The notes beneath the pieces are model-generated. The model made no database searches. It was not told where the DNA came from and saw only the letters and a program-made list of their open reading frames with translations. Made by a program: the position numbers and the translations under genes. Shown here piece after piece: positions 2,513 to 50,350 of a stretch of 55,586 bases of DNA; within the stretch, counting starts at the first letter, position 1; every line of letters starts with the position of its first letter. Origin of the DNA: Candidatus Poribacteria bacterium (GTDB lineage: Bacteria; Poribacteria; WGA-4E; WGA-3G); the NCBI GenBank assembly GCA_026706025.1, contig JAPOZO010000028.1, positions 1 to 55,586 on the forward strand, given 5' to 3'.

Positions 2513-3298
2513 ATGAAATCCATTATAACGCAATTAGCGATCATCACCATCAGTCTGAGTCTGATCTTCACAGTACATACTTACGCGGAGATCGATTTTA
2601 GCACCGCAAGGGGCATTTGGCTACTTGACGAAGGTGACGGCAATGTTATCAACGATATGTCTGGAAACGAGAATCATGGTGAACTTCAGGGTGGAGAATG
2701 GGTCGAAGGTCCTGATGGCCCTGCCTTAAGTCTAAATGGACAAGATGATCGGGTTATCATCGCAGATTCCGATAGTCTGTATCTCGAAGAGGCATGGACG
2801 ATCACCGCATGGACTTTTGTGAATACAACCGAGAACGGTTTTGGACATATTCTTGGCAAAAGACCTGCATCTGGAACCGTGGCGAATTACGCGTTCAGGA
2901 CAAGCGGCAATGGTCAAGGCTGGGAAGCATACTATGCACGAGACGGTTGGAAAGGTGCCTGGAATCAAGGTTCAGTCAAGAAAGGGGAATGGTTGTATAT
3001 GACCGCAACCTATGACGGAACAGATACCATTAAAATCTATGAAAATGGCACTGAAATCGGTTCCGTTGGGGGGATGGGTGGACCGGCTCCCCGAAATGAC
3101 ACTGTGGTCAACATCGGCGGTTGGACCGACAACACTTCAGAGACACTTGACGGTATGCTCGCTCAGGTCGCGCTTTTCAGTGTCGCCTTGGCGGAAGAAG
3201 ATATAAACACCCTCATGGAGGACGGGCTATCATCCTTAGCAGCTGTTGAGCCTTCTAACAAACTCGCAACGACGTGGGCAGACATCAAATCTCAATAA
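2513..3298 (+). CDS. Secreted LamG/concanavalin A-like lectin-domain protein with C-terminal tag
   Basis: 261 residues with a Sec signal peptide (MKSIITQLAIITISLSL, cleavage near HTYA-EID). Most of the rest is one LamG/pentraxin-like jelly-roll: GIWLLDEG, NDMSGNENHGEL, GPDGPALSLNGQDDRV, WTITAWTFVN, a YMTATYDG strand, and a closing LDGMLAQVALFSVAL. Such domains bind carbohydrate or act as structural modules. No catalytic motif is seen. The last 17 residues, VEPSNKLATTWADIKSQ, match tails on five other secreted proteins in the window. GGAGG lies 6 nt before the ATG. It is followed by a hairpin and by a close paralogue, which indicates tandem duplication. Confidence 0.85.
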   Translation: MKSIITQLAIITISLSLIFTVHTYAEIDFSTARGIWLLDEGDGNVINDMSGNENHGELQGGEWVEGPDGPALSLNGQDDRVIIADSDSLYLEEAWTITAWTFVNTTENGFGHILGKRPASGTVANYAFRTSGNGQGWEAYYARDGWKGAWNQGSVKKGEWLYMTATYDGTDTIKIYENGTEIGSVGGMGGPAPRNDTVVNIGGWTDNTSETLDGMLAQVALFSVALAEEDINTLMEDGLSSLAAVEPSNKLATTWADIKSQ

Positions 3299-3430: not shown

Positions 3431-4213
3431 ATGAAATCCATTATAGTCAGTTTAGCGATTATCACCATCAGTCTGACCTTCGCAGTACATACTTATGCGG
3501 AGATCGACTTTGAAACCGCAAGGGGCATTTGGCTGCTCAACGAAGGCAAAGGCGATGATATCGAAGATATTTCTGGAAACGACAACCACGGTGAACTTCA
3601 AGGCGGAAAATGGATTAAAGGACCGGATGGCCCTGCCCTCAGTTTAAACGGCGTAAATGATCGGGTTATCATCGCAGACTCCGAGAGTATGTATCTGGAA
3701 AAGGCGTGGTCAATTACTTCATGGGTGTATGTCAACAAAACCGAGAACGGTTTTGGCCATATTCTCGGTAAAAGACCTGCGAATGGAACCGTAGCAAATT
3801 ACGCCTTTAGGACAAGCGGCAATGGCACCGGTTGGGAAGCTTACTTTGCGCGAGACGGTTGGAAAGGTGCCTGGGGGCAAGGAAATGTGAAGAAAGATGT
3901 CTGGTTGTATATGACCGCAACGTACGACGCAAAGGATACCATCAAGATCTACGAAAATGGCGTTGAAATCGGTTCTGTTGGAGGGATGGGTAAACCAGGG
4001 CCCCAGAATGACACCGAGGTCAACATCGGCGGTTGGACTAACAATACCTCAGAGACACTTGACGGTATGCTCTATGAGGTTGCAATCTTCGCTTCCGTAC
4101 TGGAAGAAGACGACATAAACGAGCTGATGGAGAAGGGGCTCCTAACACTCATGCCTGTTGAACCTTCTGGTAAACTTGCCACGACATGGGCAGGCATCAA
4201 ATCTCGGCAATAG
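3431..4213 (+). CDS. Secreted LamG-domain protein with C-terminal tag (tandem paralogue)
   Basis: 260 residues, closely similar along its whole length to the protein encoded at 2513-3298: same signal peptide start (MKSIIVSLAIITISL), same LamG blocks (ARGIWLLNEGKGDD, NGVNDRVIIADSESMYLEKAW, GHILGKRPANGTVANYAF), same end. The tail VEPSGKLATTWAGIKSRQ is the cleanest copy of the shared C-terminal motif. Probably exported. A role in glycan binding or cell-surface coating is inference. Differences are scattered substitutions, so the duplication is not brand new. AAGGAG precedes the ATG. Confidence 0.85.
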   Translation: MKSIIVSLAIITISLTFAVHTYAEIDFETARGIWLLNEGKGDDIEDISGNDNHGELQGGKWIKGPDGPALSLNGVNDRVIIADSESMYLEKAWSITSWVYVNKTENGFGHILGKRPANGTVANYAFRTSGNGTGWEAYFARDGWKGAWGQGNVKKDVWLYMTATYDAKDTIKIYENGVEIGSVGGMGKPGPQNDTEVNIGGWTNNTSETLDGMLYEVAIFASVLEEDDINELMEKGLLTLMPVEPSGKLATTWAGIKSRQ

Positions 4214-14804: not shown

Positions 14805-15854
14805 TCATTGCATTGAAAAGATAACGCCTAATGCCTCATTCGGCGTTTGAATCAACTTTTCACACCCTTCAGATGCCTGATCAATCGGGATAATATCCGT
14901 AATCAAAGGATTCACCTGAATTTTGCCTTCGGACATCAGTCGTAGCGATAACTCCAAGTTGCGTTGTGTGGGCCACGGAACAAATACCGGTGGGTAATCC
15001 GCGCCGTGTTCATAATCCTCGTCGTGGTAGCCGGGTCCGGTACGTGCCGCGCTAATAACGTCTACATTGCCGAGTCCTGCTGCAAAACCGTGCGTAATGC
15101 TCGCACCACCAACGATGACAATCCGTCCCACCTTGTGTGTATCGGGGGCAGTCTTTAGCATCGCACGAATCTGCTGAAACGCGCTCGTCGCATCGCCACC
15201 GAAGGCGATAATCCCACAATCCATGCCATAACCGTTAGTGAATCCCTCTGCGATGGGAATCGGATCCGTTTCGGATACGTTTACAGCGCAGTGGACCCCA
15301 GCGTTTTCGGCGATACCTATTCGTAAGGGTAGTTGGTCTAAACCGATGACATAAGCCCCCGCTGTTTTGGCGATTTGACACGCAAATTGCCCAACGATAC
15401 CTAACCCAGCAACAACAACGTTTTCGCCGATGCGGATACGTCCGCGTTGCACGGCGTGCAATGCCGTTGCCGCAAGATGAATAGAAGCAGCGTCCTCGTC
15501 AGCGACATCATCAGGAATCTTCGCGCATAGATTGTGCGGTACACAAGCATAAGTTGCGTGGAGCGCGTAACCACCGCCCATACCAGCCACCCGATCGCCG
15601 ATCTCAAATTCGTCGCAATCGCCTTCCATACCGACAACAACACCGGAATTCGTATATCCAAAGGGACGCTGCCTCGCTTCAGCACCTGGATTCTCGCGTC
15701 GCCGTTTAACACCACCGAGTTCCGTACCCGGACTTACCATTGAGGCGCGAACTTCAACCAACAATTGACCGGGCTTCGGCGCAGGCGTTTCCTGCTCCTC
15801 CGTCCAGATACGTCCCGCTTCATTCATCACCACAACTTTTCTCGTTTTACTCAT
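14805..15854 (-). CDS. Medium-chain dehydrogenase (MDR superfamily, zinc-type alcohol dehydrogenase-like)
   Basis: 349 residues from ATG 15852-15854, with AGAGGA 7 nt upstream; a TTG six bases earlier would add two residues. GroES-like N-terminal part (LLVEVRASMVSPGTELGG) and Rossmann part with VVVAGLGIVGQFACQIAK near residue 165. The Cys/His residues of the usual catalytic and structural zinc sites are not evident, so it may be a non-zinc member such as those acting on sugars or bacteriochlorophyllide-like substrates. Last gene of a four-gene minus-strand operon, 18 nt after the PhyH gene. Substrate unknown. Confidence 0.8.
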   Translation of the reverse strand: MSKTRKVVVMNEAGRIWTEEQETPAPKPGQLLVEVRASMVSPGTELGGVKRRRENPGAEARQRPFGYTNSGVVVGMEGDCDEFEIGDRVAGMGGGYALHATYACVPHNLCAKIPDDVADEDAASIHLAATALHAVQRGRIRIGENVVVAGLGIVGQFACQIAKTAGAYVIGLDQLPLRIGIAENAGVHCAVNVSETDPIPIAEGFTNGYGMDCGIIAFGGDATSAFQQIRAMLKTAPDTHKVGRIVIVGGASITHGFAAGLGNVDVISAARTGPGYHDEDYEHGADYPPVFVPWPTQRNLELSLRLMSEGKIQVNPLITDIIPIDQASEGCEKLIQTPNEALGVIFSMQ

Positions 15855-18814: not shown

Positions 18815-18882
18815 AATCAATCCAAATCGTAGTACTTTCTAAGTAGAGGGACCGTGTCTCATGGTCTTGCGAAGGAACAATA

Positions 18883-19821
18883 ATGCGCCAACGTAAATTA
18901 GGAAACACAGGACTAACCGTCTCTGAAATTGGCATGGGAACATGGGAACTCGGAGGACGTGAATGGGGAGACATCAGTGAAACAGACGCTGTTGATCTCC
19001 TCCGATATGCCTTTGAAAGCGGTGTCACCTACTACGATACGGCAGACCAATACGGTGGTGGACGCGCTGAACAGTTACTCGGTGAGGCTTTCTCAGCACT
19101 CGGCAATAGAGTCGTTATCGCCACGAAACTCGGCTATGAATTGGACTCTGATGGCTGGATTAGCCAAGGATGGGAACACCCAGCGTTTAATGTTTCACCT
19201 GATTATATCCGGTCAGCCGTTGAAGGAAGTCTCACGCGGTTGAAGAGAGATGTCATAGACATCTATCAATTCCATGGACCACCGCCGGCATCCGAGTGGG
19301 ATGATGCGTTCGGCACAATGGAAGACCTCAAAACTGAAGGCAAAATCCGATTCTATGGGATGGGGCTCGGTAGTGAGGCAGACGCACTGAAAGCAATAGC
19401 AGGGACCGGTATCTCCTCGTTGATGCTCACCTACAACATCCTCACTCAAGGGATGGCGACACCAGTGATGGAAACCGCCGCTGAAAAAGGAGTCGCCATT
19501 GTCGTCCGGCAACCGCTGTCGTCCGGACTGCTCTCTGGACAACTCGGACCGGACACTGTGTTTGCAGAAAACGATTATCGGAAAACCTGGTCTCGCGAGA
19601 AATTCCTCGCTGACCTGGAACGGGTGAAACAGGTGAAGTCGATCATCGGCGATAAGGCGCGAAGCCTCCCACAAGCCGCCCTCAAATTCATCTTAGCACA
19701 TCCGGCAGTCTCCTGCGTCGTGCCAGGGATGATGACACCGGCACAAGTTGACGATGGTGTAGCCACTTCAGGGGCAGCCCCTCTGCCGGCCACAGTCTTA
19801 GACCAATTACAAAACAATTAA
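18883..19821 (+). CDS. Aldo/keto reductase
   Basis: 312 residues of the AKR (alpha/beta)8 fold. The catalytic set is visible: Asp and Tyr in YYDTADQYGGGRAE (about residue 49), Lys in IATKLGYE (about 83), and His in YQFHGPP (about 129). LGNTGLTVSEIGMGTWELGG at the N-terminus is typical of the YajO/AKR11-13-like group. NAD(P)H-dependent reduction or oxidation of a sugar or carbonyl compound; substrate unknown. Cytoplasmic. AAGGAACA precedes the ATG. The following thiamine-binding-like gene is 9 nt away and probably co-transcribed. Confidence 0.88.
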   Translation: MRQRKLGNTGLTVSEIGMGTWELGGREWGDISETDAVDLLRYAFESGVTYYDTADQYGGGRAEQLLGEAFSALGNRVVIATKLGYELDSDGWISQGWEHPAFNVSPDYIRSAVEGSLTRLKRDVIDIYQFHGPPPASEWDDAFGTMEDLKTEGKIRFYGMGLGSEADALKAIAGTGISSLMLTYNILTQGMATPVMETAAEKGVAIVVRQPLSSGLLSGQLGPDTVFAENDYRKTWSREKFLADLERVKQVKSIIGDKARSLPQAALKFILAHPAVSCVVPGMMTPAQVDDGVATSGAAPLPATVLDQLQNN

Positions 19822-20153: not shown

Positions 20154-21455
20154 ATGGACAAAAAATTTTTCCTGATAGGGTTAGCATGTCTGATAAGCTT
20201 TCTCATGACAACAAACATCAGCCAAGCACAAGAACGTATCACCGGTCCGTGGCTCTGGATGATCGCGCTAACCGAACTTAATCAAGGCGGACAGGCTTCT
20301 ACCGATATTGACTCACTCAATGAAGCCAGCAAAGGCAGAACCTCCGAAGAACAAATTGCAGAAAACGGAGCGAAAGAGGGCGATCCCGTCAGCGGTTATA
20401 AATGGACTCCCGGTGAACTTCCTGCCGATGGAAATATCAATGCGATGCTCGTTGATATAGGAATGACAGAAATCGCTGATTTCAACGATGTCACGTCTTA
20501 CGCCATTATCATAATCGAATCCGACAGAGAGCAACGTAATGTAATGATGGGAGTCAGCAGCGATGATGCTATCAAAGTCTGGCTCAACGGCAGTGTCGTT
20601 CATAAGAACGCAGTCAACCGCGGACGTGGAGGCCCCAATGAATTCCAAGATGAATTTCAGGTTAACCTCAAAGAAGGGGCAAATCTGTTGATGGTCAAGG
20701 TCAGTGAACGCGGTGGCGGTTGGGGTATGAACGTCGGCATTGATGCGAATTTCGAGCACAGCCTAAACTTTGATGATTATGAACACGTTGAATTTGACGC
20801 TCAGGGAGACCCCATACCCGTACAAGAAAATGAATGGGGCGCAAATAGACGCATTACCGGCCCGTGGCTCTGGATGATCGCACCCACCAAAGCCAATCAA
20901 GGCGGACAGGCTTCTACCAATGTTGATTCGCTTGATGAGGAAAGTAACGGAAAAGTCACAGAAGAGGAAGTCGCAAAAAACGGTGCGAGAAAAGGTGATG
21001 TTGTCGGTGATTATAAATGGACGTTCGGCACCCTCCCAGCAGACGGTAACATCAATGCAACTGTCGTATCAATTGGTATGACAAACGTCGCTGACTTTAA
21101 CGATGTTACATCCTACGCTTTGATTACCCTTAAAACCACGAAAGCACAGCGCGACGTTACGATGGGTGTCAATAGTGATGATTCTATCAAGGTTTGGCTC
21201 AACGGTGAAGTCATTCATACCAACGCCGTGAATCGCGGACGTGGGAACGCAAACACCTTCCAAGATACGTTTGATGTTGACCTCAAACGCGGTAGTAATC
21301 TGTTGATGGTCAAGGTCAGTGAGCGCGGCGGTGGATGGGGCATGTACGTCGGCATTGATGCAGATTTCGCTCTCACAAGCACACCAGGTTCTCTGTCCGT
21401 TGAACCTACGGGTAAACTTATAACAAAGTGGGGAGAACTAAAGCACGCCCGTTAG
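20154..21455 (+). CDS. Secreted protein with two W-L-W-M-I domains and C-terminal tag
   Basis: 433 residues. Signal peptide MDKKFFLIGLACLISFLM ending near SQAQ. Two copies of a domain of about 185 residues (near 28-205 and 233-410), each opening with GPWLWMIAxT and NQGGQAST, passing through ADFNDVTSYA and SSDDAIKVWLNG, and ending with LLMVKVSERGGGWGM and VGIDA. The SDD-KVWLNG...G-NLLMVKV pattern resembles the galactose-binding/sugar-binding jelly-roll found in hydrolases, but the family is not one I recognise by name. The tail VEPTGKLITKWGELKHAR is the shared tag. First of three tandem paralogues; it follows the thiamine-binding gene by 14 nt. Confidence 0.85.
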   Translation: MDKKFFLIGLACLISFLMTTNISQAQERITGPWLWMIALTELNQGGQASTDIDSLNEASKGRTSEEQIAENGAKEGDPVSGYKWTPGELPADGNINAMLVDIGMTEIADFNDVTSYAIIIIESDREQRNVMMGVSSDDAIKVWLNGSVVHKNAVNRGRGGPNEFQDEFQVNLKEGANLLMVKVSERGGGWGMNVGIDANFEHSLNFDDYEHVEFDAQGDPIPVQENEWGANRRITGPWLWMIAPTKANQGGQASTNVDSLDEESNGKVTEEEVAKNGARKGDVVGDYKWTFGTLPADGNINATVVSIGMTNVADFNDVTSYALITLKTTKAQRDVTMGVNSDDSIKVWLNGEVIHTNAVNRGRGNANTFQDTFDVDLKRGSNLLMVKVSERGGGWGMYVGIDADFALTSTPGSLSVEPTGKLITKWGELKHAR

Positions 21456-21623: not shown

Positions 21624-22322
21624 ATGCAGAAGAAATTATGGATAATAGGGCTGGTATATCTAATGAGTCTTTCGGTTATGATGCACATCGCCAATGCCGA
21701 AAAGCCAATCGCGGGACCGTGGCTCTGGATGATCGTACCTACCGATGCCGGTGTAGGCGGTCAGGCTTCTACCGATGAAGATTCTCTGGATGAAGCCAGC
21801 AAGGGCAAAGTCACCGAGGAAAAGGTCGCAAAAAATGGTGCTAAAGAAGGCGATGAAGTCGGTGATTATGAGTGGACTCCGGGCGAACTCCCAGCGAACG
21901 GCGACATCAACGTGTGTGTCGTGAATATTAAGATGACAAAAGTCGCTGATTTCAACGATGTTACGTCTTATGCACTTCTCATACTTGAATCCAGCAAAAA
22001 GCAGTCCGGTGTGACAATGGGTACCAGCAGCGATGATTCTCTCAAAGTCTGGCTTAATGGTGAAGAGGTCCATCGAATGGCTGTGAACCGTGGGCGCGGG
22101 GGTTTGCCCGCCAATATCAATGGCTACCAAGATAGGTTTGAAGTGGACCTGAAAAAAGGTGCGAATCTGTTGATGGTGAAGGTCAGTGAGCGCGGCGGCT
22201 GGGGACAGTATGTCGGTGTCGATGCTGATGTCGAACACCACATAGATTTTGATAAGTTTCAACCCGTCGAACCCGCCGGAAAACTGGCGACGCAATGGGC
22301 TGAAGTTAAAAATTCTTACTAA
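21624..22322 (+). CDS. Secreted protein with one W-L-W-M-I domain and C-terminal tag
   Basis: 232 residues. Signal peptide MQKKLWIIGLVYLMSLSV, cleavage near ANA-EKP. A single copy of the domain found twice in each neighbour: GPWLWMIVPTDAGVGGQAST, DDSLKVWLNGEEVH, NLLMVKVSERGGWGQYVG. The tail VEPAGKLATQWAEVKNSY carries the shared C-terminal motif. Between the Arg-Gly-rich NRGRGG and QD this copy has a 5-residue insert (LPANINGY), like the first domain of the next gene. Probably exported; function unknown. GAAAGGA lies upstream of the ATG. Confidence 0.83.
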   Translation: MQKKLWIIGLVYLMSLSVMMHIANAEKPIAGPWLWMIVPTDAGVGGQASTDEDSLDEASKGKVTEEKVAKNGAKEGDEVGDYEWTPGELPANGDINVCVVNIKMTKVADFNDVTSYALLILESSKKQSGVTMGTSSDDSLKVWLNGEEVHRMAVNRGRGGLPANINGYQDRFEVDLKKGANLLMVKVSERGGWGQYVGVDADVEHHIDFDKFQPVEPAGKLATQWAEVKNSY

Positions 22323-22522: not shown

Positions 22523-23779
22523 ATGTACAGGAAACTATTTACAATAGGTTTAGCATGTCTCATGGCTCTTTTTGTTATGACGGTAACACAGGTTGCCGAT
22601 GCACAAGAACCCATTAAAGGACCATGGCTCTGGATGATCGCACCCACAGAAGCCAACCAAGGTGGACAGGCTTCTACCGATATCGACTCTCTCTCAGTCG
22701 CCAGTGGTGGTGATGTTACCGAAGAAATGGTCGCAGCAAACGGCGCAAACGAAGGTGACGTTGTCGGGGACTACGCATGGACGCTCGGCACGCTGCCCGA
22801 TAACGGCGATACGAACGTTATGGCCGTCGACATAGGTTTGACAGAAGTTGCCGATTTCAACGACGTGAGTTCTTATTCACTTATCTACCTTGCCTCCGCT
22901 ACAGCACAGTCCGGCGTAACGCTGGGGGTCAGCAGCGATGACTCTATCAAAGTCTGGCTCAACGGTGAAGTCGTCCATACAAACGCTGTCAACCGCGGAC
23001 GCGGCGGGACACCCGCTAATATAGACGCCTACCAAGATAAAATTGAAGTGAACCTATTAGAAGGGGCTAATCTGTTGCTCGTGAAGGTGAGTGAACGCGG
23101 GGGTGGATGGGGACAGTACGTCGGTATCGATGCCGATGTCACTACCTCACCTACGCCACCTATCTTCCACATTCAAGGTGAATGGCTCTGGATGATCGCA
23201 CCCACAGAAGCCAACCAAGGCGGACAAGCTTCCACCGATATCGATTCGCTCGCAGTTGCCAGTAACGACGATGTCACCGAAGAAGATGTCGCAATGAACG
23301 GCGCAACTGAAGGCGATGAAGTCGGGGATTACGCATGGACACTCGGCGAACTGCCAGCAGACGGAAACATCAACGCAATGCTCGTCGAACTCGGTGTGAC
23401 AGAAAATGCTGATTTCAATGACGTTACCTCTTACGCACTTATCACGCTCGTAGCCGATGACGATATGGAAGGCGTGATGATAGGTGTCAGCAGTGACGAC
23501 TCCGTCAAAGTCTGGCTCAACGGTGAAGTCGTTCATACAAACGCTGTCAACCGCGGGCGCGGCAACGCAGCCTCCTTCCAAGATACGTTCTCAGCCAACC
23601 TTGTAAAAGGTGACAACATTCTGATGATAAAAGTCAGTGAACGTGGCGGCGGATGGGGTATGTACGCTGGTATCAACGCCCCTGTCGAGGCTATCTATAA
23701 GTCAAGTGCACAGTTAGGCACATCTGTTGAAGCCGCTGGCAAACTGCCAACAACTTGGGGCAGCTTGAAAATTAAGTAA
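22523..23779 (+). CDS. Secreted protein with two W-L-W-M-I domains and C-terminal tag
   Basis: 418 residues from ATG 22523, chosen because GGAGG lies 6 nt upstream; an in-frame ATG at 22499 lacks a site. Signal peptide MYRKLFTIGLACLMALFVM ending near ADAQ. Two domains start at GPWLWMIAPTEANQGGQAST (about residue 32) and GEWLWMIAPTEANQGGQAST (about 220). They are more alike at the opening than elsewhere. Linker DVTTSPTPPIFHIQ. The tail VEAAGKLPTTWGSLKIK is the most divergent tag copy (Ala replaces Pro). Last of the array, closed by a perfect terminator. Confidence 0.85.
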   Translation: MYRKLFTIGLACLMALFVMTVTQVADAQEPIKGPWLWMIAPTEANQGGQASTDIDSLSVASGGDVTEEMVAANGANEGDVVGDYAWTLGTLPDNGDTNVMAVDIGLTEVADFNDVSSYSLIYLASATAQSGVTLGVSSDDSIKVWLNGEVVHTNAVNRGRGGTPANIDAYQDKIEVNLLEGANLLLVKVSERGGGWGQYVGIDADVTTSPTPPIFHIQGEWLWMIAPTEANQGGQASTDIDSLAVASNDDVTEEDVAMNGATEGDEVGDYAWTLGELPADGNINAMLVELGVTENADFNDVTSYALITLVADDDMEGVMIGVSSDDSVKVWLNGEVVHTNAVNRGRGNAASFQDTFSANLVKGDNILMIKVSERGGGWGMYAGINAPVEAIYKSSAQLGTSVEAAGKLPTTWGSLKIK

Positions 23780-31099: not shown

Positions 31100-32026
31100 A
31101 TGCAAAAAACGAAACTAAAAATCAGTGGTATGTCCTGTCAACACTGTGTCAAAACGGTCACAGACGTGTTGACAGAACTTGAAGGCGTTCAGCGCGCAAA
31201 AGTCAACCTTCGCAAAGGTGAAGCGATTGTCCATTTTGATGCCTCTCGCACCACCATCAGCAACCTCACAGAAGCAATAACAGATGCCGGTTTTGAAGCG
31301 GTAGCGAAAACCACACCTTTATCATTAAAATCAATCGGCACAATTCTAATCGTGCTTTTCAGCCTAATCGGCTGCACCGATGTCCCCTACACCGGTCCAA
31401 TGCTAACAGTTGACCACGTAGACCGCTATCTGAACTCCCTTGGTGAAGATACAATCTGTTTACAAGATGGGTTTGATTCCATCTGCATAAAAGTCGTACC
31501 GGGAAAAAGCGGCGATGCAAATGACATCATTCCTATCGTCCACGTTCACCCAACAAGCCTCATTTACATGTTCTACTACGAAAGCAAACCCATTTTGCGA
31601 GCAGAAAGGGTAATGGACACCACCCAGATTACACAGGAATTGACCGGCGAACCCATAGCAAACGACAACGCCCAAGGTATTGATAGCACTATCTTTAAAG
31701 ACTGGACCATCCAGATATATTACCCAGATTCGTTGCCAGAAGCAAATCGCGGTGCAACACCCGAAACCAGTGGACTCGACCTCAGAGTTGTCGAAGGAAT
31801 GAAAATAGGAACTGAGAAAAAAAAAGACCTTCAGATAATGAACTTTACACAAATCAACGGACTTGACAGCAGCCGTATCGCTCAATTCACCATTGAAACG
31901 GAGGCACAGGAGATAACGATCCAAGTGGATGGGTTAGTCACCGAGCATACCGCAACATTCTACATCAACGCAGATAGTGTGGCATCAAATGAAAGCACCA
32001 GTTCCCTTCAACTGCAACCGCTATAA
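31100..32026 (+). CDS. HMA (heavy-metal-associated) domain fused to an internal lipoprotein-like signal and envelope domain
   Basis: 308 residues. Residues 1-68 form a CopZ/MerP-type HMA domain with ISGMSCQHCVKTV (Cys13 and Cys16 bind soft metals). Residues 74-92, LSLKSIGTILIVLFSLIGC, look exactly like a lipoprotein signal with lipobox LIGC. The rest is a soluble domain (YTGPMLTVDHVDRY, PTSLIYMFYYESKPILRAER, a beta-rich end) with no known family. No ATG, GTG or TTG suits a separate lipoprotein, so the fusion is real as read. Predicted topology: metal domain in the cytoplasm, remainder outside. The next gene has the same design. AAGGAA precedes the ATG. Confidence 0.82.
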   Translation: MQKTKLKISGMSCQHCVKTVTDVLTELEGVQRAKVNLRKGEAIVHFDASRTTISNLTEAITDAGFEAVAKTTPLSLKSIGTILIVLFSLIGCTDVPYTGPMLTVDHVDRYLNSLGEDTICLQDGFDSICIKVVPGKSGDANDIIPIVHVHPTSLIYMFYYESKPILRAERVMDTTQITQELTGEPIANDNAQGIDSTIFKDWTIQIYYPDSLPEANRGATPETSGLDLRVVEGMKIGTEKKKDLQIMNFTQINGLDSSRIAQFTIETEAQEITIQVDGLVTEHTATFYINADSVASNESTSSLQLQPL

Positions 32027-32050: not shown

Positions 32051-33649
32051 ATGGCAAAAACAAAATTAGAAATTCGTGGTATGTCTTGCCAGCACTGCGT
32101 TAAAACCGTGACAGATGCCTTGACAACGCTTGAAGGGGTGCAGCGCGTAAAGGTAAACCTACGTAAAGGTGAGGCGATTGTACGCTATGACGCATCCTAC
32201 ATTACCGATGCCAATCTCGTGGCGGCAATAACAAAAGTCGGTTTTGAAGCGGGAACGAAAACCAAACTCTTATCGTTAAGATTAATAGGTGGCATCCTAA
32301 TCGCACTTCTCAGCATACCCGGTTGTTCCAATATGCCTTATACAGGTTCAATGTTGACAGCTGAAGATGTTGACCGATATATTACTATAGGTGAAGATTC
32401 TGCCTGCCTCCTGAGTGGACACGAGTCAATTTGTATAACACTTATACCGGAAACGGAAGACGACAGTAGACCTGTCATCCACATCTATCCAAGGAAACTC
32501 ATTTATGTGTTCTATTATGAAGGCGTGCAAATTATGCGGGCAGAACGGGTAATGGACACCACCGAGATTATGGAGCAAGTGAGGGGTCCGGGAGAAGATG
32601 ATCAGCCACCAAGCGGGAACGGTGGTGTTCGCGATGACGACGGAGATGGCACTATCAATGGCGGCGGTGACACACAGCAACCCGGTGATGGCAGCACCCA
32701 GAAACCCGATGGTGGCACGCAACAAGTCGGTGATGGCAGCACCCAGAAACCCGATGGTGGTAACGGCGGCACCCAGCAGCCACCACCACTTCCTCCTTCA
32801 GAGGGTGGCAATCAAAATGGTGGCCAAAACGGTGATGGAAATGGGAATAGGGACGGAAATGGAAACGGAAATGGAAACGGAAAGGGGAATGGTGATGGAA
32901 ACGGAAAGGGAAACGGAAATGGAAACGGAAAGGGGAACGGTGATGGAAACGGGAATGGAGACGGAAATGGGAATGGGAATGGTGATGGAAACGGGGATGG
33001 CAATGGTGATGGAAACGGAAATGGGAATGGAAACGGCAATGGAGACGGAAACGGAAATGGGAATGGGAATGGTGATGGAAACGGAAATGGAAATGGAAAT
33101 GGAAATGGGAACGGAAATGGAAACGGAAATGGAAATGGAAATGGGAACGGAAACGGGAATGGCAATGGAAACGGAAACGGCAATGGAAACGGCAATGGAA
33201 ACGGAGACGGAAACAGCAGGAACAACGTTGTTGGCGACTCCGACCTATCAACACACTACTATTACACTAACAAGGATCCCATAGAAGGAAACGGATGGTT
33301 AGTGCATATATACTACCCGGAAAACTACAACGGCCCGCGTGGGTTAGGAGAAGACCCTCAAGGGTACGGGTTTACAGTCACCTTAAGCGGCACTGAGGCC
33401 GAGATAACACAATTCGTACAAACTGCTGGACCCTGTCGTGACGACGATAAACCCTGCAACAGAGCTATTGAGCCAAGCAACCCATCGACGTACAGTGTTC
33501 AGATATACATTGAAACGAAGGAAACGACACTATCAATTACTGTGAATTGGAAATCACCGTACTCTCATCTTACCAAAACGTACACCCTTAATGCAGCCGT
33601 TAATATCGCAGAAGACAGCCTCTATCATACCAGCCAAGAGAATAATTAG
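32051..33649 (+). CDS. HMA-lipobox fusion protein with long Gly-Asn repeat
   Basis: 532 residues, a paralogue of the previous gene. The HMA domain (RGMSCQHCVKTVTDAL) at 1-68 is followed by SLRLIGGILIALLSIPGC, with the lipid-type Cys again at residue 92, then YTGSMLTAEDVDRY and RKLIYVFYYEGVQIMRAERV. Residues about 180-255 are Gly/Gln/Pro-rich repeats (GDGSTQKPDGG). Residues about 261-388 are GN/GD dipeptides encoded by a hexanucleotide repeat. The C-terminal 145 residues (WLVHIYYPENY, GFTVTLSGTEAEI, a CRDDDKPC pair) are beta-rich. AAGGAG sits 6 nt before ATG. Likely a surface-exposed anchored protein; ligand unknown. Confidence 0.82.
   Translation: MAKTKLEIRGMSCQHCVKTVTDALTTLEGVQRVKVNLRKGEAIVRYDASYITDANLVAAITKVGFEAGTKTKLLSLRLIGGILIALLSIPGCSNMPYTGSMLTAEDVDRYITIGEDSACLLSGHESICITLIPETEDDSRPVIHIYPRKLIYVFYYEGVQIMRAERVMDTTEIMEQVRGPGEDDQPPSGNGGVRDDDGDGTINGGGDTQQPGDGSTQKPDGGTQQVGDGSTQKPDGGNGGTQQPPPLPPSEGGNQNGGQNGDGNGNRDGNGNGNGNGKGNGDGNGKGNGNGNGKGNGDGNGNGDGNGNGNGDGNGDGNGDGNGNGNGNGNGDGNGNGNGNGDGNGNGNGNGNGNGNGNGNGNGNGNGNGNGNGNGNGNGNGNGNGDGNSRNNVVGDSDLSTHYYYTNKDPIEGNGWLVHIYYPENYNGPRGLGEDPQGYGFTVTLSGTEAEITQFVQTAGPCRDDDKPCNRAIEPSNPSTYSVQIYIETKETTLSITVNWKSPYSHLTKTYTLNAAVNIAEDSLYHTSQENN
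32831..33214 (+). repeat. In-frame hexanucleotide minisatellite (GGAAAY/GGNGAY units)
   Basis: About 64 tandem 6-bp units of the type GGAAAC, GGAAAT, GGGAAT, GGTGAT and GGAGAC run almost without break and encode alternating Gly-Asn with occasional Gly-Asp or Gly-Lys. Because units are 6 bp, slippage changes protein length without frameshift. The opposite strand is also open through it but is only a shadow. Confidence 0.9.
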
Positions 33650-36253: not shown

Positions 36254-37516
36254 ATGAGCGAAAATATCCAAGAACTGATCCAATCACAAGCGAAAAAAGC
36301 AAAATCGGCGATGCGTGTTTTATCGCGGAGCTCCGCTGACGTACGAAACCACGCGCTTTTAGCAATGGCAGAGCGTCTACAGAATTCAAAAGATAAAATC
36401 CAGACCGCAAACCGCACTGATCTTGATAACGGCGAAAAAACCGGAGTCCCCGCCCCTCTCATGGAACGCCTTTTGATAGACGAGAAAAAAATCGAACGGA
36501 TGGTGGACAACCTCCGTCAAGTCGCCGCACTCCCTGACCCAATCGGTGCGGTTATCAGTATGGGAGAACGTCCGAACGGCCTCAAGATTGGCACAGTCCG
36601 TGTACCTATCGGTGTCGTCGGTGTGGTATATGAGTCTCGACCCGATGTGACCGTTGAAGTCTCAGCTCTCTGTATCAAATCCGGGAACGGAGTTATCCTC
36701 CGAGGCGGTTCCGAGGCAATCCACTCCAACGCAACGCTTGCCCGTATACTCAGCGATACCGCCGCCGCAGAAGGTGTACCTGATGCTATCCAATTCGTTG
36801 ACACCACTGACCGACAGGCAGTCTACGAACTCATCCGCCTGCCAGACTACGTTGACCTCGTCATTCCGCGCGGCAGCAACGAATTCGTCCAGTTTTTGAT
36901 GAAAGAATCCGATGTCCCAGTTCTCGGACATGCCGACGGTATCTGCCATATCTATATTGATGAAGCCGCCGACCTTGAAATGGCAAATAATATCTGTATG
37001 AATGCGAAGGTTGGATACAAAGTCGCTGTCTGCAACGCATTAGAAACCCTCCTTGTCCATGCCGATACTGCCGAGAAATTCCTCCCCGCTTTCTGTGAGA
37101 CTTTACAGGATTCGGATGTTGAAATCCGCGGATGCGAACGGACACAGCAGCTTTATCCCACCGCCAAACCTGCGACTGAAGAAGATTGGCGCACAGAATA
37201 CCTCGATTACATCTTATCCATTCGCGTGGTGGACGACATAGACACTGCAATTGATCACATAGAAACCTACGGATCGCACCATTCCGATGCGATCATCACC
37301 GAAAGCTACAGCACAGCCCAACGCTTCCTCAAAGAGGTGGATTCCGCTGCAGTCTACGTTAACGCCAGTACCGTTTTTACCGACGGCTATGAATTCGGCT
37401 TAGGTGCCGAAGTCGGGATTAGCACGCAGAAACTCCATTCCCGTGGTCCCATGGGACTTGAAGGGTTAACAACTTATAAATATATCGTCTACGGAAACGG
37501 GCAGGTACGTGAATAG
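36254..37516 (+). CDS. proA: Glutamate-5-semialdehyde dehydrogenase (gamma-glutamyl phosphate reductase)
   Basis: 420 residues from ATG 36254, with AAAGGA upstream. Aldehyde dehydrogenase superfamily, ProA type: IGVVGVVYESRPDVT near residue 110, ILRGGSEA, VIPRGSNEFVQFL, and the catalytic Cys in KVAVCNALETLL (about residue 260). C-terminal STVFTDGYEFGLGAEVGIST is the ProA signature. Reduces glutamyl-5-phosphate made by ProB. Obg-ProB-ProA lie in order on the same strand, with a separate promoter before proA. Confidence 0.95.
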   Translation: MSENIQELIQSQAKKAKSAMRVLSRSSADVRNHALLAMAERLQNSKDKIQTANRTDLDNGEKTGVPAPLMERLLIDEKKIERMVDNLRQVAALPDPIGAVISMGERPNGLKIGTVRVPIGVVGVVYESRPDVTVEVSALCIKSGNGVILRGGSEAIHSNATLARILSDTAAAEGVPDAIQFVDTTDRQAVYELIRLPDYVDLVIPRGSNEFVQFLMKESDVPVLGHADGICHIYIDEAADLEMANNICMNAKVGYKVAVCNALETLLVHADTAEKFLPAFCETLQDSDVEIRGCERTQQLYPTAKPATEEDWRTEYLDYILSIRVVDDIDTAIDHIETYGSHHSDAIITESYSTAQRFLKEVDSAAVYVNASTVFTDGYEFGLGAEVGISTQKLHSRGPMGLEGLTTYKYIVYGNGQVRE

Positions 37517-37562
37517 GAGCACACTACGCTCTCCTAACTCAGTCCATTACCGGAGGAAAATC

Positions 37563-37634
37563 ATGGCAACCCGTGCAGCACAAACACGCCTGACACCCGA
37601 AGAATACATCGCTTTTAGAGAGTTACCGAACTGA
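37563..37634 (+). pseudogene. Truncated Uma2-type (DUF820) endonuclease N-terminus
   Basis: A 23-codon open frame with a strong GGAGG six nt before ATG reads ATRAAQTRLTPEEYIAFREL, then stops. That sequence is the standard opening of Uma2-family putative restriction endonucleases, whose next residues and nuclease core are absent. It is best read as a remnant of a deleted gene between proA and the flippase. It could also be expressed as a micropeptide, but nothing supports that. Confidence 0.55.
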
Positions 37635-37702
37635 CAGAGTTGGAGCACGGGTACCCAGTATCTACAACGCTGGCAACTTTAAACACGCGCCTCAATCACT
37701 GC

Positions 37703-39064
37703 ATGTCAAATAATGCTGCCCAGACAAATCCTCCTATTCTCAAAAATGTCCTCCTTACTGCACCGCTCAGCCTGATCGGACGTGCTGGCACATTTCTTAT
37801 CTACATCGCCCTCGCTAATTGGTTCGGTGACCCGGCGGAGATGGATTTTATTTACTACTATTGGGGCATCGCTGCATTCCTTATTGAGCTGCTCAGTGCC
37901 GCCTCCGCCTATTCCGTCCTCGTCCCTCTGTTAGCCGAAGCCCGTGCGAAAGGTGAAACTGAGGCACAACGCTGTGTACAATCCATCTTTTCCCGTTATA
38001 TCACGACAATGCCATGGCTCTGTTGTCTCCTCGTTGTCATTTCCTGGGCAATTTCCCAACTTTTTTTTCCAAATGCCGGGCTCACACCCACTACCACAAT
38101 CAGTATCGTGTGTGGGTTCCTCTGTTTCACGACGATTGCATCAGTCCGTTGGATGCTCAAGGCGATATTAGACACTTATCAAGTGTTTCAACTCCCAGTT
38201 ATTGTACAAGGATTCCGTGCTGCACTTGTTATTGGGATTATCTACCTATGTAAACCGTCTCTAACTTGGTTCAGTATACCGCTCGCGCTCATCCTTGGTG
38301 AACTTTTTCAAGTGATCGTCTTGTTCCCGCGATGCTGTACCATCCTGAACCTGCAAGCGCGGCATCTGAAACTAAATTTACAAGAAACACCATACACCAA
38401 ACAGTTCCTACACCAATGCCTACTCATGATGGGTGCTGCGATTGCCGATGGAATCAACCCAGTCGTCGATAGGGGCATGGCAAGCACATTAGGGACAAGT
38501 TCCGTCTCGAAACTTGATTACGCACTCCGCTTGTGCGCAATCCCTGAAACGCTCACAGGTGTAACGCTTCCGGTCCTATTATCGCATTGGGCGAAGATCT
38601 CTTCGTCAGAATCACAATCAGAAAACGGCTTAACCACCAACGGGACGCAATTACAGCGAAGTGTCTGGCAAGGAGTCGTTGCGCTACTGGCACTGATGGT
38701 GCCCTTCTTGGCAGGCTTTTATCTTTTTCGGGAAAATATCGTTTCGGTTTCGTATGGACACGGTGAATTGTCTGAGGTGGGGCAGTTTCATATCGCTTCG
38801 TTGCTTGGTATCTATCTATTAGGGATGCTCCCACGTTTAATCAGCCGATTGCTAATCCGAGCACACCTCGCGCGTCAAGCGCATGGGACCGTTGTCACGG
38901 CAACTCTCATCAGACTTATCCTAAATCCGGTTCTTAATTGGTTGTTTATGCAGTATTGGGGATTAGACGGGGTCGCTTGGTCAACAGCATTGTTGTCTTA
39001 TCCGATTCTCGCGTATATCGCAACCACGTTTTGGTGGGGCCAAGGGAGGCAAACTAAACGATAG
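37703..39064 (+). CDS. MurJ/MviN-like lipid-linked oligosaccharide flippase
   Basis: 453 residues from ATG 37703; an upstream in-frame TTG at 37640 would add 21 unlikely residues. About 12-14 hydrophobic segments, beginning VLLTAPLSLIGRAGTFLIYIAL. Features of the MOP/MurJ group: GDPAEMDFIYYYWG, an internal loop LLAEARAKGETEA, and KLDYALRLCAIPETLTGVTL (about residue 275), equivalent to the MurJ family's membrane-crossing middle. It could flip lipid II or an exopolysaccharide precursor; low-level sequence clues do not decide. No glycosyltransferase cluster is adjacent. Its end overlaps the convergent GDPD gene by 11 nt. Confidence 0.8.
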   Translation: MSNNAAQTNPPILKNVLLTAPLSLIGRAGTFLIYIALANWFGDPAEMDFIYYYWGIAAFLIELLSAASAYSVLVPLLAEARAKGETEAQRCVQSIFSRYITTMPWLCCLLVVISWAISQLFFPNAGLTPTTTISIVCGFLCFTTIASVRWMLKAILDTYQVFQLPVIVQGFRAALVIGIIYLCKPSLTWFSIPLALILGELFQVIVLFPRCCTILNLQARHLKLNLQETPYTKQFLHQCLLMMGAAIADGINPVVDRGMASTLGTSSVSKLDYALRLCAIPETLTGVTLPVLLSHWAKISSSESQSENGLTTNGTQLQRSVWQGVVALLALMVPFLAGFYLFRENIVSVSYGHGELSEVGQFHIASLLGIYLLGMLPRLISRLLIRAHLARQAHGTVVTATLIRLILNPVLNWLFMQYWGLDGVAWSTALLSYPILAYIATTFWWGQGRQTKR

Positions 39065-41302: not shown

Positions 41303-42592
41303 CTACGTGTCCTTCTCAGCCCGCTTTCCACCTTCTATAGACAACAGAAATTTTTCGCCATCATCGCTCATTTCAGTAGCACCAACTTCTTCTGTTTTTT
41401 CTTCTAACTTCCGTTTGAGGACCGGATAGGCATCCACAACCGGTACCTCGCTGAGAGGCGTCAATGCCGGTTTTTGTTTTTCAGCACTCTCAATTGCCTT
41501 GGCAAGCCGTTTATTTTTTTTCTCAACGTGTGCTGCGTCCCGCGCCTTGAAATCTGGGAGCACGCGTTCCGCAAACAGTTCCAGCGATTCCATTATGTCT
41601 TCATGGCGGTTCGCACCAGCCTGCTGAATGAAAACGACTTGGTCCACGCCAGCATCCTCCATCACCTCAAGATGTTCACGCACTTGATCTGGCGTTCCGA
41701 TGCCTGCTCTACCCTCTGCAGGCTCCTGCGTTGTCTGTCTGTATAACTGCCAAATATCTGTTTGCCCTGGTATCTGTGAGCCGTTGTGATAGTAGTGTGC
41801 AAGCGCGAATCGGAAGAAACGCAACCCATCCAACCCACGCGCAACAGCCGTCTCCTCATTATTATGGCATGAAAATCCCGACACCATGGCGATGTTAGGG
41901 TTTACTCGCTGTGTCAGCGGTTCGCATTCCTTCTCAAAAATCTCGTAATACTCTTCCACCCAAAATTTGGCTTCGCTCGCATCGACAAAAGCAAAGGTTA
42001 ACGCGCCAAGTCCATATCTGGCGGCGTAACGAAGGCTATCGCGACTGGAACAAGCCACCCATGGCGGTGGGTGCGGTGTCTGCAACGGTTTTGGAACCAC
42101 ATTGCGTGTCGGCATCGAAAAATACTGTCCATCATAACCAGCATAAGGCGATTGCGTCATCATTTTCGCCGTCTCGCGTGTGCATTCTGCCCACATCTCG
42201 CGTTTATGTTTCGGGTCAACATTGAAGCCACCGAGCTCTATATGCGAAGCAGACTCCCCTGTTCCCCATTCTACACGTCCATTTGATACTAAATCAAGCG
42301 TCGAAATCCGTTCAGCGACACGTGCGGGATGGTTATACGCTGGGGGCATCAACACAATCCCGTGTCCTAACCGAATCTGTGTCGTCCGCTGGCTACAAGC
42401 CGCAAGGAATACCTCCGGTGCAGAAGAGTGCGAATATTCCTCAAGGAAATGGTGTTCAACCTCCCAAATATAGTCGAAACCAAGTGCGTCAGCGAGTTCT
42501 ACCTGCGCCAACGCATCTTGAAAAAGTTGATGTTCCGCGCCCTCATGCCACGGACGCGGAATCTGATGTTCATAAAACAGTCCAAATTTCAT
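41303..42592 (-). CDS. LLM-class (luciferase-like) flavin-dependent oxidoreductase
   Basis: 429 residues. Luciferase-like TIM barrel: MKFGLFYEHQIPRPWHEGAE, ALGFDYIWEVEHHFLEEYSH, RIRLGHGIVL-type segment QIRLGHGIVLMPPAYNHPAR, and VEWGTGES. F420- or FMN-dependent monooxygenase or dehydrogenase; substrate unknown. A charged C-terminal extension of about 75 residues (KKNKRLAKAIESAEKQKP onward) is beyond the usual domain and may be coiled or disordered. It lies between the response regulator and an aldo/keto reductase on the same strand, with gaps of about 30-40 nt. Confidence 0.88.
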   Translation of the reverse strand: MKFGLFYEHQIPRPWHEGAEHQLFQDALAQVELADALGFDYIWEVEHHFLEEYSHSSAPEVFLAACSQRTTQIRLGHGIVLMPPAYNHPARVAERISTLDLVSNGRVEWGTGESASHIELGGFNVDPKHKREMWAECTRETAKMMTQSPYAGYDGQYFSMPTRNVVPKPLQTPHPPPWVACSSRDSLRYAARYGLGALTFAFVDASEAKFWVEEYYEIFEKECEPLTQRVNPNIAMVSGFSCHNNEETAVARGLDGLRFFRFALAHYYHNGSQIPGQTDIWQLYRQTTQEPAEGRAGIGTPDQVREHLEVMEDAGVDQVVFIQQAGANRHEDIMESLELFAERVLPDFKARDAAHVEKKNKRLAKAIESAEKQKPALTPLSEVPVVDAYPVLKRKLEEKTEEVGATEMSDDGEKFLLSIEGGKRAEKDT

Positions 42593-43907: not shown

Positions 43908-44579
43908 ATGCGTTATTTCAATGTAGTAACTGTTATATTCATGGTCGCCATATTAACTCCGACCGTATCAGCAGGGATATGGCAAGAAAACTTTGACAAA
44001 GGGCTGCCTGACGGATGGAACGAAGTCAGTGGTGAGTGGAAAATCGAGAAAGATGCCTACGCCGAGACTTCTGCTGGACCGTACGCCAAGACGATGTTTG
44101 GGGATGAAAATTGGACGGATTACACCCTTGAAGTGGATGTAACCTTGGTGAAAAATGTGAGCGACGTGAATGCAGCGGGGGTGTTAATCCGTGCCGATAC
44201 GGACGGAGACAACGGCATGCGATTCTGGATTCGCACAGACCAGCATAAATGCCAATTCTCCCGATGGAGAGAGAATAAATGGGACCACATCGTAACGCCT
44301 TTACCTATTGACCCAGAAGTTGGCGAAACCTATCGTTTTAAAGTTGTTGCAGAGGGTCAAAATTATCAGTGTTTCATCGATGATGAACTCCTGTTCGAGG
44401 GTGACGATGATGCAAAATTCCGTGACAGTGGACGTATCGGCTTTATTACGCACTCGGCAAACGCCCACTTCGATAATCTGGTCATTGACGGAGCAGACAT
44501 CCCTTCCTTCGCAGTTGAGCCGAATGGTAAACTCACAACGCGTTGGGGACAATTGAAAACAGATGTTCGAGTTCAGTAA
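43908..44579 (+). CDS. Secreted concanavalin A-like (DUF1080-type) protein with C-terminal tag
   Basis: 223 residues from ATG 43908, chosen because GGAGG is 5 nt upstream; a frame opening at 43830 would add residues before the signal peptide. Signal peptide MRYFNVVTVIFMVAILTPTVSA. The body is a single jelly-roll of the 3-keto-disaccharide hydrolase/laminin-like type: WQENFDKGLPDGWNEVSGEW, DYTLEVDVTL, GVLIRADTDGDNGMRFWI, YRFKVVAEG, GRIGFITHSANAHFDNLVI. It ends with VEPNGKLTTRWGQLKTD plus four residues, the shared tag, although its domain is unlike those of the other five tagged proteins. The 187-nt gap before it holds no gene. Confidence 0.85.
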   Translation: MRYFNVVTVIFMVAILTPTVSAGIWQENFDKGLPDGWNEVSGEWKIEKDAYAETSAGPYAKTMFGDENWTDYTLEVDVTLVKNVSDVNAAGVLIRADTDGDNGMRFWIRTDQHKCQFSRWRENKWDHIVTPLPIDPEVGETYRFKVVAEGQNYQCFIDDELLFEGDDDAKFRDSGRIGFITHSANAHFDNLVIDGADIPSFAVEPNGKLTTRWGQLKTDVRVQ

Positions 44580-49564: not shown

Positions 49565-50350
49565 ATGAAGAGAAGGTTAATTCACATTTTTATAGGTGTT
49601 TTGTTTGCAATAGCACCTTTCGGAACAGCACTCGCTGCTGGTGTTCAGCAACATCTGGTTCAGAAAGGTGAGACATTGTCGGAAATCGCGCAGAAGTACA
49701 AAGTACCCCTCAAATCGATTATCCAAGCGAATAGTATTAAGTCAGCACACCGCATACGGACTGGGAGGACGCTGCGTATTCCCAGAGAAACTCTCGCATT
49801 TGAAGACATCTGGTATAAGGTTCAGCCCGGGGATACCCTGTTTAGTATCGGTCGCCGTCATAACATTGAATGGCGCGATCTTCAAAGGATTAACGGTATC
49901 TCCTCGCCGCGCAGCCTCCAGATTGGCAGAATGATACGGATTAGTGAGGATAGTCCAGGTTTCGCAAAACCGCTCAAGGTACCTTTAGTCGTTACATCAA
50001 AATACGGCTACCGACCTCACCCCGTAACGGGGCGCTACCAGCACCACGCTGGGATTGACTTCCGTGCTGCCACAGGCACACGTGTTTACGCTTCTAAAGC
50101 AGGTAGAGTTATCTTTGCCGGTCGAAAAGGTGGGTACGGGAAACTTGTCGGTATAGAACACGCGGACGATTTTACCACTTGGTATGGACATTTGTCACGC
50201 ATCAGGGTAAAAGTCGGGCAAACTGTAAGCCAAGGAAAGGTAATTGGCTTGTCGGGAAACACCGGTATCTCCACCGGACCCCATTTACATTTTGAAATTA
50301 GGTACAAAGGCAGAAGTGAAAAACCAACTAAGTACATTACCATACCGTAA
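49565..50350 (+). CDS. LysM-M23 peptidoglycan endopeptidase (EnvC/NlpD-like)
   Basis: 261 residues. Signal peptide MKRRLIHIFIGVLFAIAPF ending near ALA-AGV. Two LysM repeats (VQKGETLSEIAQKYKV, about residue 32; VQPGDTLFSIGRRHNI, about 87). Then an M23 peptidase domain with the zinc ligands in HHAGIDF (His and Asp, about residue 160), GHLSRI, and HLHFEIR near the end. All metal ligands are present, so probably active rather than a degenerate activator. Cleaves peptide cross-links in the wall or activates amidases. The 3' end overlaps by 35 nt with a lytic transglycosylase fusion gene, making a two-enzyme wall-degrading unit. Confidence 0.92.
   Translation: MKRRLIHIFIGVLFAIAPFGTALAAGVQQHLVQKGETLSEIAQKYKVPLKSIIQANSIKSAHRIRTGRTLRIPRETLAFEDIWYKVQPGDTLFSIGRRHNIEWRDLQRINGISSPRSLQIGRMIRISEDSPGFAKPLKVPLVVTSKYGYRPHPVTGRYQHHAGIDFRAATGTRVYASKAGRVIFAGRKGGYGKLVGIEHADDFTTWYGHLSRIRVKVGQTVSQGKVIGLSGNTGISTGPHLHFEIRYKGRSEKPTKYITIP

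Follow-up and report, generated by a model that had tools for sequence, protein, structure and literature searches.

A shared C-terminal tail in the window

The window analyzed here is contig 28 (55,586 nucleotides) of a 6.27-Mb, 103-contig genome of Poribacteria, an uncultured, largely sponge-associated phylum and a dominant one in many marine sponges. It encodes six secreted proteins that end in the same short motif, as claimed in a first-pass annotation made from the sequence. All six tails were recovered in frame at the positions below, where E values refer to a hidden Markov model (HMM) of the six tails.

2513-3298, plus strand: secreted LamG (Laminin_G_3) protein of 261 aa with an N-terminal signal peptide; an AlphaFold2 model was made
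3245-3295, plus strand: tag VEPSNKLATTWADIKSQ of the LamG protein at 2513-3298 (E = 2.1e-10)
3431-4213, plus strand: secreted LamG protein of 260 aa, a paralog of the protein at 2513-3298
4157-4210, plus strand: tag VEPSGKLATTWAGIKSRQ of the LamG protein at 3431-4213 (E = 3.1e-11)
20154-21455, plus strand: secreted W-L-W-M-I jelly-roll protein of 433 aa with two repeats
21399-21452, plus strand: tag VEPTGKLITKWGELKHAR of the W-L-W-M-I protein at 20154-21455 (E = 1.7e-10)
21624-22322, plus strand: secreted W-L-W-M-I protein of 232 aa with one repeat; no Pfam family found
22266-22319, plus strand: tag VEPAGKLATQWAEVKNSY of the W-L-W-M-I protein at 21624-22322 (E = 6.6e-11)
22523-23779, plus strand: secreted W-L-W-M-I protein of 418 aa with two repeats (longest ORF from 22499)
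23726-23776, plus strand: tag VEAAGKLPTTWGSLKIK of the W-L-W-M-I protein at 22523-23779 (E = 3.1e-9)
43908-44579, plus strand: secreted DUF1080/3keto-disac_hyd jelly-roll protein of 223 aa (longest ORF from 43830)
44514-44576, plus strand: tag VEPNGKLTTRWGQLKTDVRVQ of the DUF1080 protein at 43908-44579 (E = 1.4e-10)

Residues V, E, K, L, T, W, and K are invariant across the six aligned tails. The three body types assigned by the first-pass annotation were confirmed as LamG (2513 and 3431), W-L-W-M-I jelly-roll (20154, 21624, and 22523), and DUF1080 (43908), with weak RhaB_D2/PA14 similarity in Pfam for the jelly-roll proteins at 20154 and 22523. The non-lipoprotein signal peptide that it had described was called by a simple heuristic rule in all six. 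No NCBIfam model covers the six tails, in agreement with its statement that they are not known to belong to a named family.

Other genes of the window include one in which a PorV/PorQ-like barrel domain is fused to a lytic transglycosylase domain (50244-51824). Two paralogs (31100-32026 and 32051-33649), as read from sequence only, apparently have an HMA-like (heavy-metal-binding) start followed by a lipobox-like stretch, and the one at 32051-33649 has a very long Gly-Asn/Gly-Asp repeat.

Position, consensus, and abundance of the tag

The six-tail HMM gave at least 150 scored matches among 295 candidates in the same genome, with E values between 3e-11 and 0.008; most of the frames measure 200 to 350 aa. 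We took 1.7 Mb of this genome around tag and LamG matches and iterated the HMM on its ORFs, which yielded 176 matches at an E value below 0.01, 175 of them no more than 12 residues from the C terminus. With weak but obvious cases included, at least 185 ORFs in the 1.7 Mb are tagged. Because this DNA was picked around matches, the counts are biased toward tagged regions, and a sample centered on sprA was therefore taken as a check; there, 31 of 35 tag matches lay within 12 residues of the C terminus and the other 4 within 27. The fixed, extreme C-terminal position originally proposed thus holds for nearly all copies, but a minority stand directly before a type IX C-terminal domain (CTD), and a few proteins have 13 to 27 residues beyond the tag.

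The HMM consensus is [LF]-[APS]-V-[ED]-P-x-G-K-L-[AT]-T-T-W-[GA]-x-[LI]-K, followed by 1 to 10 residues, and the tag itself is about 15 to 19 residues long. The Trp and the Lys four residues later are invariant in the 185 tails of this genome, in which the V (93%), the K at -5 (94%), the L at -4 (85%), and a G or A after the Trp (99%) are also strongly conserved. The tails were described at first as basic and free of any hydrophobic stretch, and both properties are borne out among the 185, with a mean net charge of +2.2 across the last 16 residues of tagged proteins.

Signal peptides, scored by the same heuristic rule rather than by a trained predictor, were called in 170 of 185 tagged ORFs (~92%) versus 320 of 998 untagged neighbor ORFs (32%). 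Most of the 15 tagged ORFs without a call are cut short, sit at the end of a contig, or have a hydrophobic start that the rule missed, and the only two lipobox calls among tagged ORFs both look spurious. The tag is absent from most of the other signal-peptide proteins encoded by neighbor ORFs in this genome. Chance or composition as its source was excluded, since reversed and shuffled ORFs gave no HMM match at an E value below 0.01 and none of 177,635 distinct PDB sequences matches the full tag model. For 56 carriers, 25 families were listed, none of them an NCBIfam model that covers the tag, and a text search of the literature for the tag sequence found no paper. The HMM search proposed in the first-pass annotation had been expected to give dozens of hits at the C termini of signal-peptide proteins; it returned dozens to hundreds per genome, nearly all of them C-terminal and nearly all in signal-peptide proteins, with no mid-protein or cytoplasmic background at similar frequency in this genome.

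Short tagged genes that look truncated or broken but retain an intact tag occur on contigs 68 (15564-15794), 89 (121624-121926), 18 (18866-19045), and 101 (41311-41469), one of them at a contig end. Across the genome, 42 same-strand pairs of adjacent tagged genes lie no more than 300 bp apart; tagged genes are often arrayed in tandem, which suggests expansion through duplication.

Portability across unrelated folds

With the tags removed, the bodies fall into 39 clusters at a BLAST E value below 1e-5, with no sequence similarity between clusters; the largest hold 88 LamG and 24 DUF1080 members. Domains found in 56 representatives include LamG, DUF1080, CBM9, CBM4_9, PD40/WD40, Kelch, LRR, and lamin-tail, among others; jelly-roll and propeller (Kelch and PD40) folds are both present, and at least six unrelated folds carry the tag. 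Tag identity is 0.573 within body clusters and 0.555 between unrelated ones, compared to 0.061 for other C termini. The tags are also roughly twice as well conserved as the bodies that they terminate, at 0.59 versus 0.26 in LamG proteins and 0.63 versus 0.32 in DUF1080 proteins. Most LamG matches examined (90 of 100) sit in tagged proteins, and two of the long untagged LamG proteins carry a type IX CTD at their C terminus.

AlphaFold2 models of a LamG carrier and a DUF1080 carrier have mean pLDDT values of 87 and 84, and the LamG body is an ordinary lectin-like fold. In both models, the tag is a detached, low-confidence tail (pLDDT of 44 to 60) with some helix; if it is drawn as a helix, the L at -4, the W at 0, and the L or I at +3 lie within 60 degrees of each other. 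LamG proteins make up about half of the carriers, as might be expected if a single domain family supplied the tag as its structural last strand or if the tag were a relic of whole-protein common descent. Equal tag identity across unrelated bodies, together with the detached tail in the models, leads us to reject a last strand, and common descent of the whole protein, already doubted in the first-pass annotation, is inadequate for 39 body clusters and at least six unrelated folds; both explanations are extremely unlikely.

The tag is therefore portable, exported, and essentially C-terminal. Its spread under the HMM, its position, the signal peptides of its carriers, and the variety of their folds support the original proposal of an unrecognized signal, and the tag very probably serves in sorting, anchoring, or processing.

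Distribution in the phylum and fusion to type IX CTDs

An HMM scan of 85 Poribacteria genomes, spanning 10 families and 22 genera, found the tag in every one, with 21 to at least 150 copies per genome (all lower bounds). A plasmid search gave one weak LamG match to query residues 38 to 239, a span that does not cover the tag.

A nonterminal tag usually stands 5 to 6 residues before a type A CTD of the type IX secretion system (T9SS; TIGR04183). The sole internal tag found in the genome of the window is of this kind:

Contig 99, 36989-38866 (L136): 627-aa FG-GAP-like protein (domain named from reading the sequence) with the fusion VEPTGKLGTTWGKVK-AAEVFQ-NYPNPFNPETWIPY, i.e., tag, spacer, and CTD

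Two proteins from one genus of another family share this arrangement, except that Leu replaces Trp. An HMM of the junction scored 89 to 90 bits on fusions versus at most 51 on CTD-only proteins, and matches of at least 75 bits spanning both halves were listed from most of the 85 genomes. At the DNA level, the pattern W-G-x-[ILVM]-K followed by a gap of 2 to 9 residues and N[YF]PNPFNP was located at 58 loci, which come from 53 genomes and five families; read backwards, the same pattern had no match. All 19 distinct translated fusion matches have a gap of 5 or 6 residues.

The PorU of Bacteroidota cuts the linker before the CTD, and the new C terminus receives a glycan (PMC11969387). As the tag stands in the linker that PorU would cut, tag-only and tag-CTD proteins would both end in the tag when mature. 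The fusions could also be read differently, with the tag as the outer-membrane export signal of a separate route, either new or type II, and the CTD as a later gain. Tag and CTD are otherwise mutually exclusive, which fits such a history, and none of the 185 terminally tagged ORFs overlaps any of the 67 places listed out of 76 TIGR04183 matches. The loss of Trp from the pre-CTD tag in one genus fits as well. However, 53 genomes retain W-G-x-[IV]-K ahead of the CTD at a fixed spacing of 5 to 6 residues, so the pre-CTD form is not simply decaying, and we consider a separate export route improbable.

A divergent type IX secretion system in Poribacteria

Poribacteria were described in 2014 as having type IX sorting domains (TIGR04183) without the structural genes (PMC3909097). 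We found about 76 type A CTDs in the genome of the window, along with the following candidate components:

Contig 63, 137048-143701 (locus piece L140, 1049-7702), minus strand: divergent SprA/Sov translocon
L167, 6712-13077 and 5579-6685; L168, 3278-9760; L101, 4966-10161; L172, 3851-11313: three PorU-like C25 proteins, one adjoining a PorV-family barrel

A single SprA-like ORF of about 2200 aa is present in each of 12 Poribacteria genomes tested. It matches the NCBIfam model in four to five collinear stretches with whole-protein E values of 1e-42 to 1e-47, and because its 143 to 162 bits fall below the curated cutoff of 200, we regard it as a homolog rather than an assigned equivalog. A contig scan with SprA gave matches at 58 loci, every record titled Poribacteria. 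PorU-like C25 proteins number about three per genome; in the genome of the window they reach NCBIfam E values of 1e-103 to 1e-120 at 346 to 402 bits (cutoff of 420), and these proteins themselves end in CTD-like domains. A PorV-family barrel gene adjoins one PorU gene in two families, at 107 to 109 bits against a cutoff of 90. The GldM/PorM motor had no match at an E value of 0.1 or below in the 12 genomes, which makes the system either divergent or differently powered. By homology, Poribacteria thus have a divergent T9SS with SprA, PorU, and PorV homologs, which revises the 2014 view that the structural genes are lacking.

A tagged LamG gene lies directly upstream of sprA in part of the records only, and the pair was rejected as a general rule. 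PorV-family genes were also considered as private shuttles beside tagged genes, and none lie near tagged genes in the DNA examined. Overall, tagged genes are not consistently adjacent to T9SS genes.

A proposed tag of the mature C terminus

We propose that a tagged protein would be exported by Sec and then fold in the periplasm with its tail of 15 to 19 residues exposed, probably forming a short amphipathic helix that bears L, W, and L/I along a single face and is flanked by lysines. Outer-membrane machinery would read the tail and move the protein to the cell surface, fix it there, or both. This machinery would most likely be the divergent T9SS, with its SprA translocon, PorV-family shuttle, and PorU-like C25 peptidases. 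CTD removal from fusions would leave the tag as the mature C terminus, the position that it already holds in the small proteins. There, the tag would mark the terminus either to be attached by a sortase-like enzyme, one of the three C25 proteins, or to dock to a surface partner. A new tag of the mature C terminus, used in surface sorting or anchoring and working with the T9SS, is our best explanation overall, with a probability of roughly 0.5. Surface location, recognition by T9SS parts, and cleavage or covalent attachment are what we infer from these patterns.

The functional tie to the T9SS is an evenly balanced question. A co-occurring processing enzyme had been suggested as support in the first-pass annotation; a candidate T9SS does co-occur and is joined to the tag in the fusions, but as each is universal in the genomes tested, their co-occurrence does not discriminate. 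Against the tie stand the missing CTD hallmarks of the tag (detailed below), the motor not found in 12 genomes, SprA and PorU scores under curated cutoffs, the inconsistent neighborhoods of tagged genes, and the replacement of Trp by Leu in the fusions of one genus. A C25 sortase as the reader of the tag is a tentative extension that we consider rather unlikely. In its fullest and similarly tentative form, one of the three PorU paralogs would be a dedicated transpeptidase that recognizes the tag and attaches proteins via it, a short-tag sortase pathway for about two hundred small proteins that is evolutionarily joined to the T9SS.

The same tail could instead dock noncovalently, with the amphipathic helix binding a surface receptor (an outer-membrane barrel, surface layer, or scaffold) after any export route, as in dockerin-cohesin pairs, and with the T9SS exporting the CTD fusions only. 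The tag is short, exposed, helix-prone, and too weakly hydrophobic for a membrane anchor; once the CTD is cut from a fusion, the tag would remain at the mature C terminus, and lectin-like, propeller, and repeat modules make up most of the carriers. Such docking leaves unexplained how the small tagged proteins cross the outer membrane, and no receptor candidate was found; we hold it possible but rather unlikely. Recognition by a periplasmic carboxy-terminal protease or quality-control factor, for processing or degradation, would suit a basic, exposed, extreme C-terminal tail, yet the tag is conserved on surface modules that number in the hundreds and are presumably stable, and most other signal-peptide proteins lack it, a pattern more in line with sorting than with turnover; it is also kept upstream of CTDs. 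A protease signal is very unlikely.

The tag defines a presumptive surface or secreted set of about 200 proteins per genome, which serves as a candidate list for contact with the sponge host and with polysaccharides. The C25 reading, if true, would place a new short-tag sortase pathway beside a phylum-wide T9SS. The tag adds a class of C-terminal signal for which we found no matching library model or published report, and the tag-CTD fusions give a testable link between this class and type IX systems.

Comparison with known C-terminal signals

Like LPXTG motifs, the tag is a short motif near the C terminus of signal-peptide proteins with varied domains, and like PEP-CTERM and other -CTERM signals of exosortase systems, it consists of genome-wide paralogous tails recognized bioinformatically. 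It matches both types in its place in the protein and in its dependence on a signal peptide. Unlike LPXTG signals, it is not followed by a hydrophobic span, with only 1 to 10 residues beyond the final Lys, and it lacks the C-terminal transmembrane or hydrophobic segment of PEP-CTERM. The sortase family PF04203 was absent from all 12 Poribacteria genomes searched, whereas control genomes carrying it gave matches, and the sortase reading was rejected on these grounds; a sortase or exosortase type of signal has next to no chance of being correct. Dockerins and docking peptides are similar as C-terminal modules on carbohydrate-binding and repeat proteins, but the tag is much shorter than a dockerin and has no calcium-binding loops.

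The closest comparison is with the T9SS type A CTD (TIGR04183), which is likewise C-terminal and portable among Sec-exported proteins of many folds; tag and CTD stand at the same position in Poribacteria proteins, some of which contain both in fused form. Known CTDs, including the short ones of Prevotella intermedia, span 40 to 82 residues (PMC11969387), whereas the tag has fewer than 20. It also lacks G-x-Y (motif D), is predicted to be helical rather than a beta-sandwich, and has an invariant Trp and Lys of its own; a basic residue near the end is the only feature that it shares with the terminal basic motif. As it fails these defining features, we do not class the tag as a T9SS CTD, and it may nevertheless act within the T9SS pathway.
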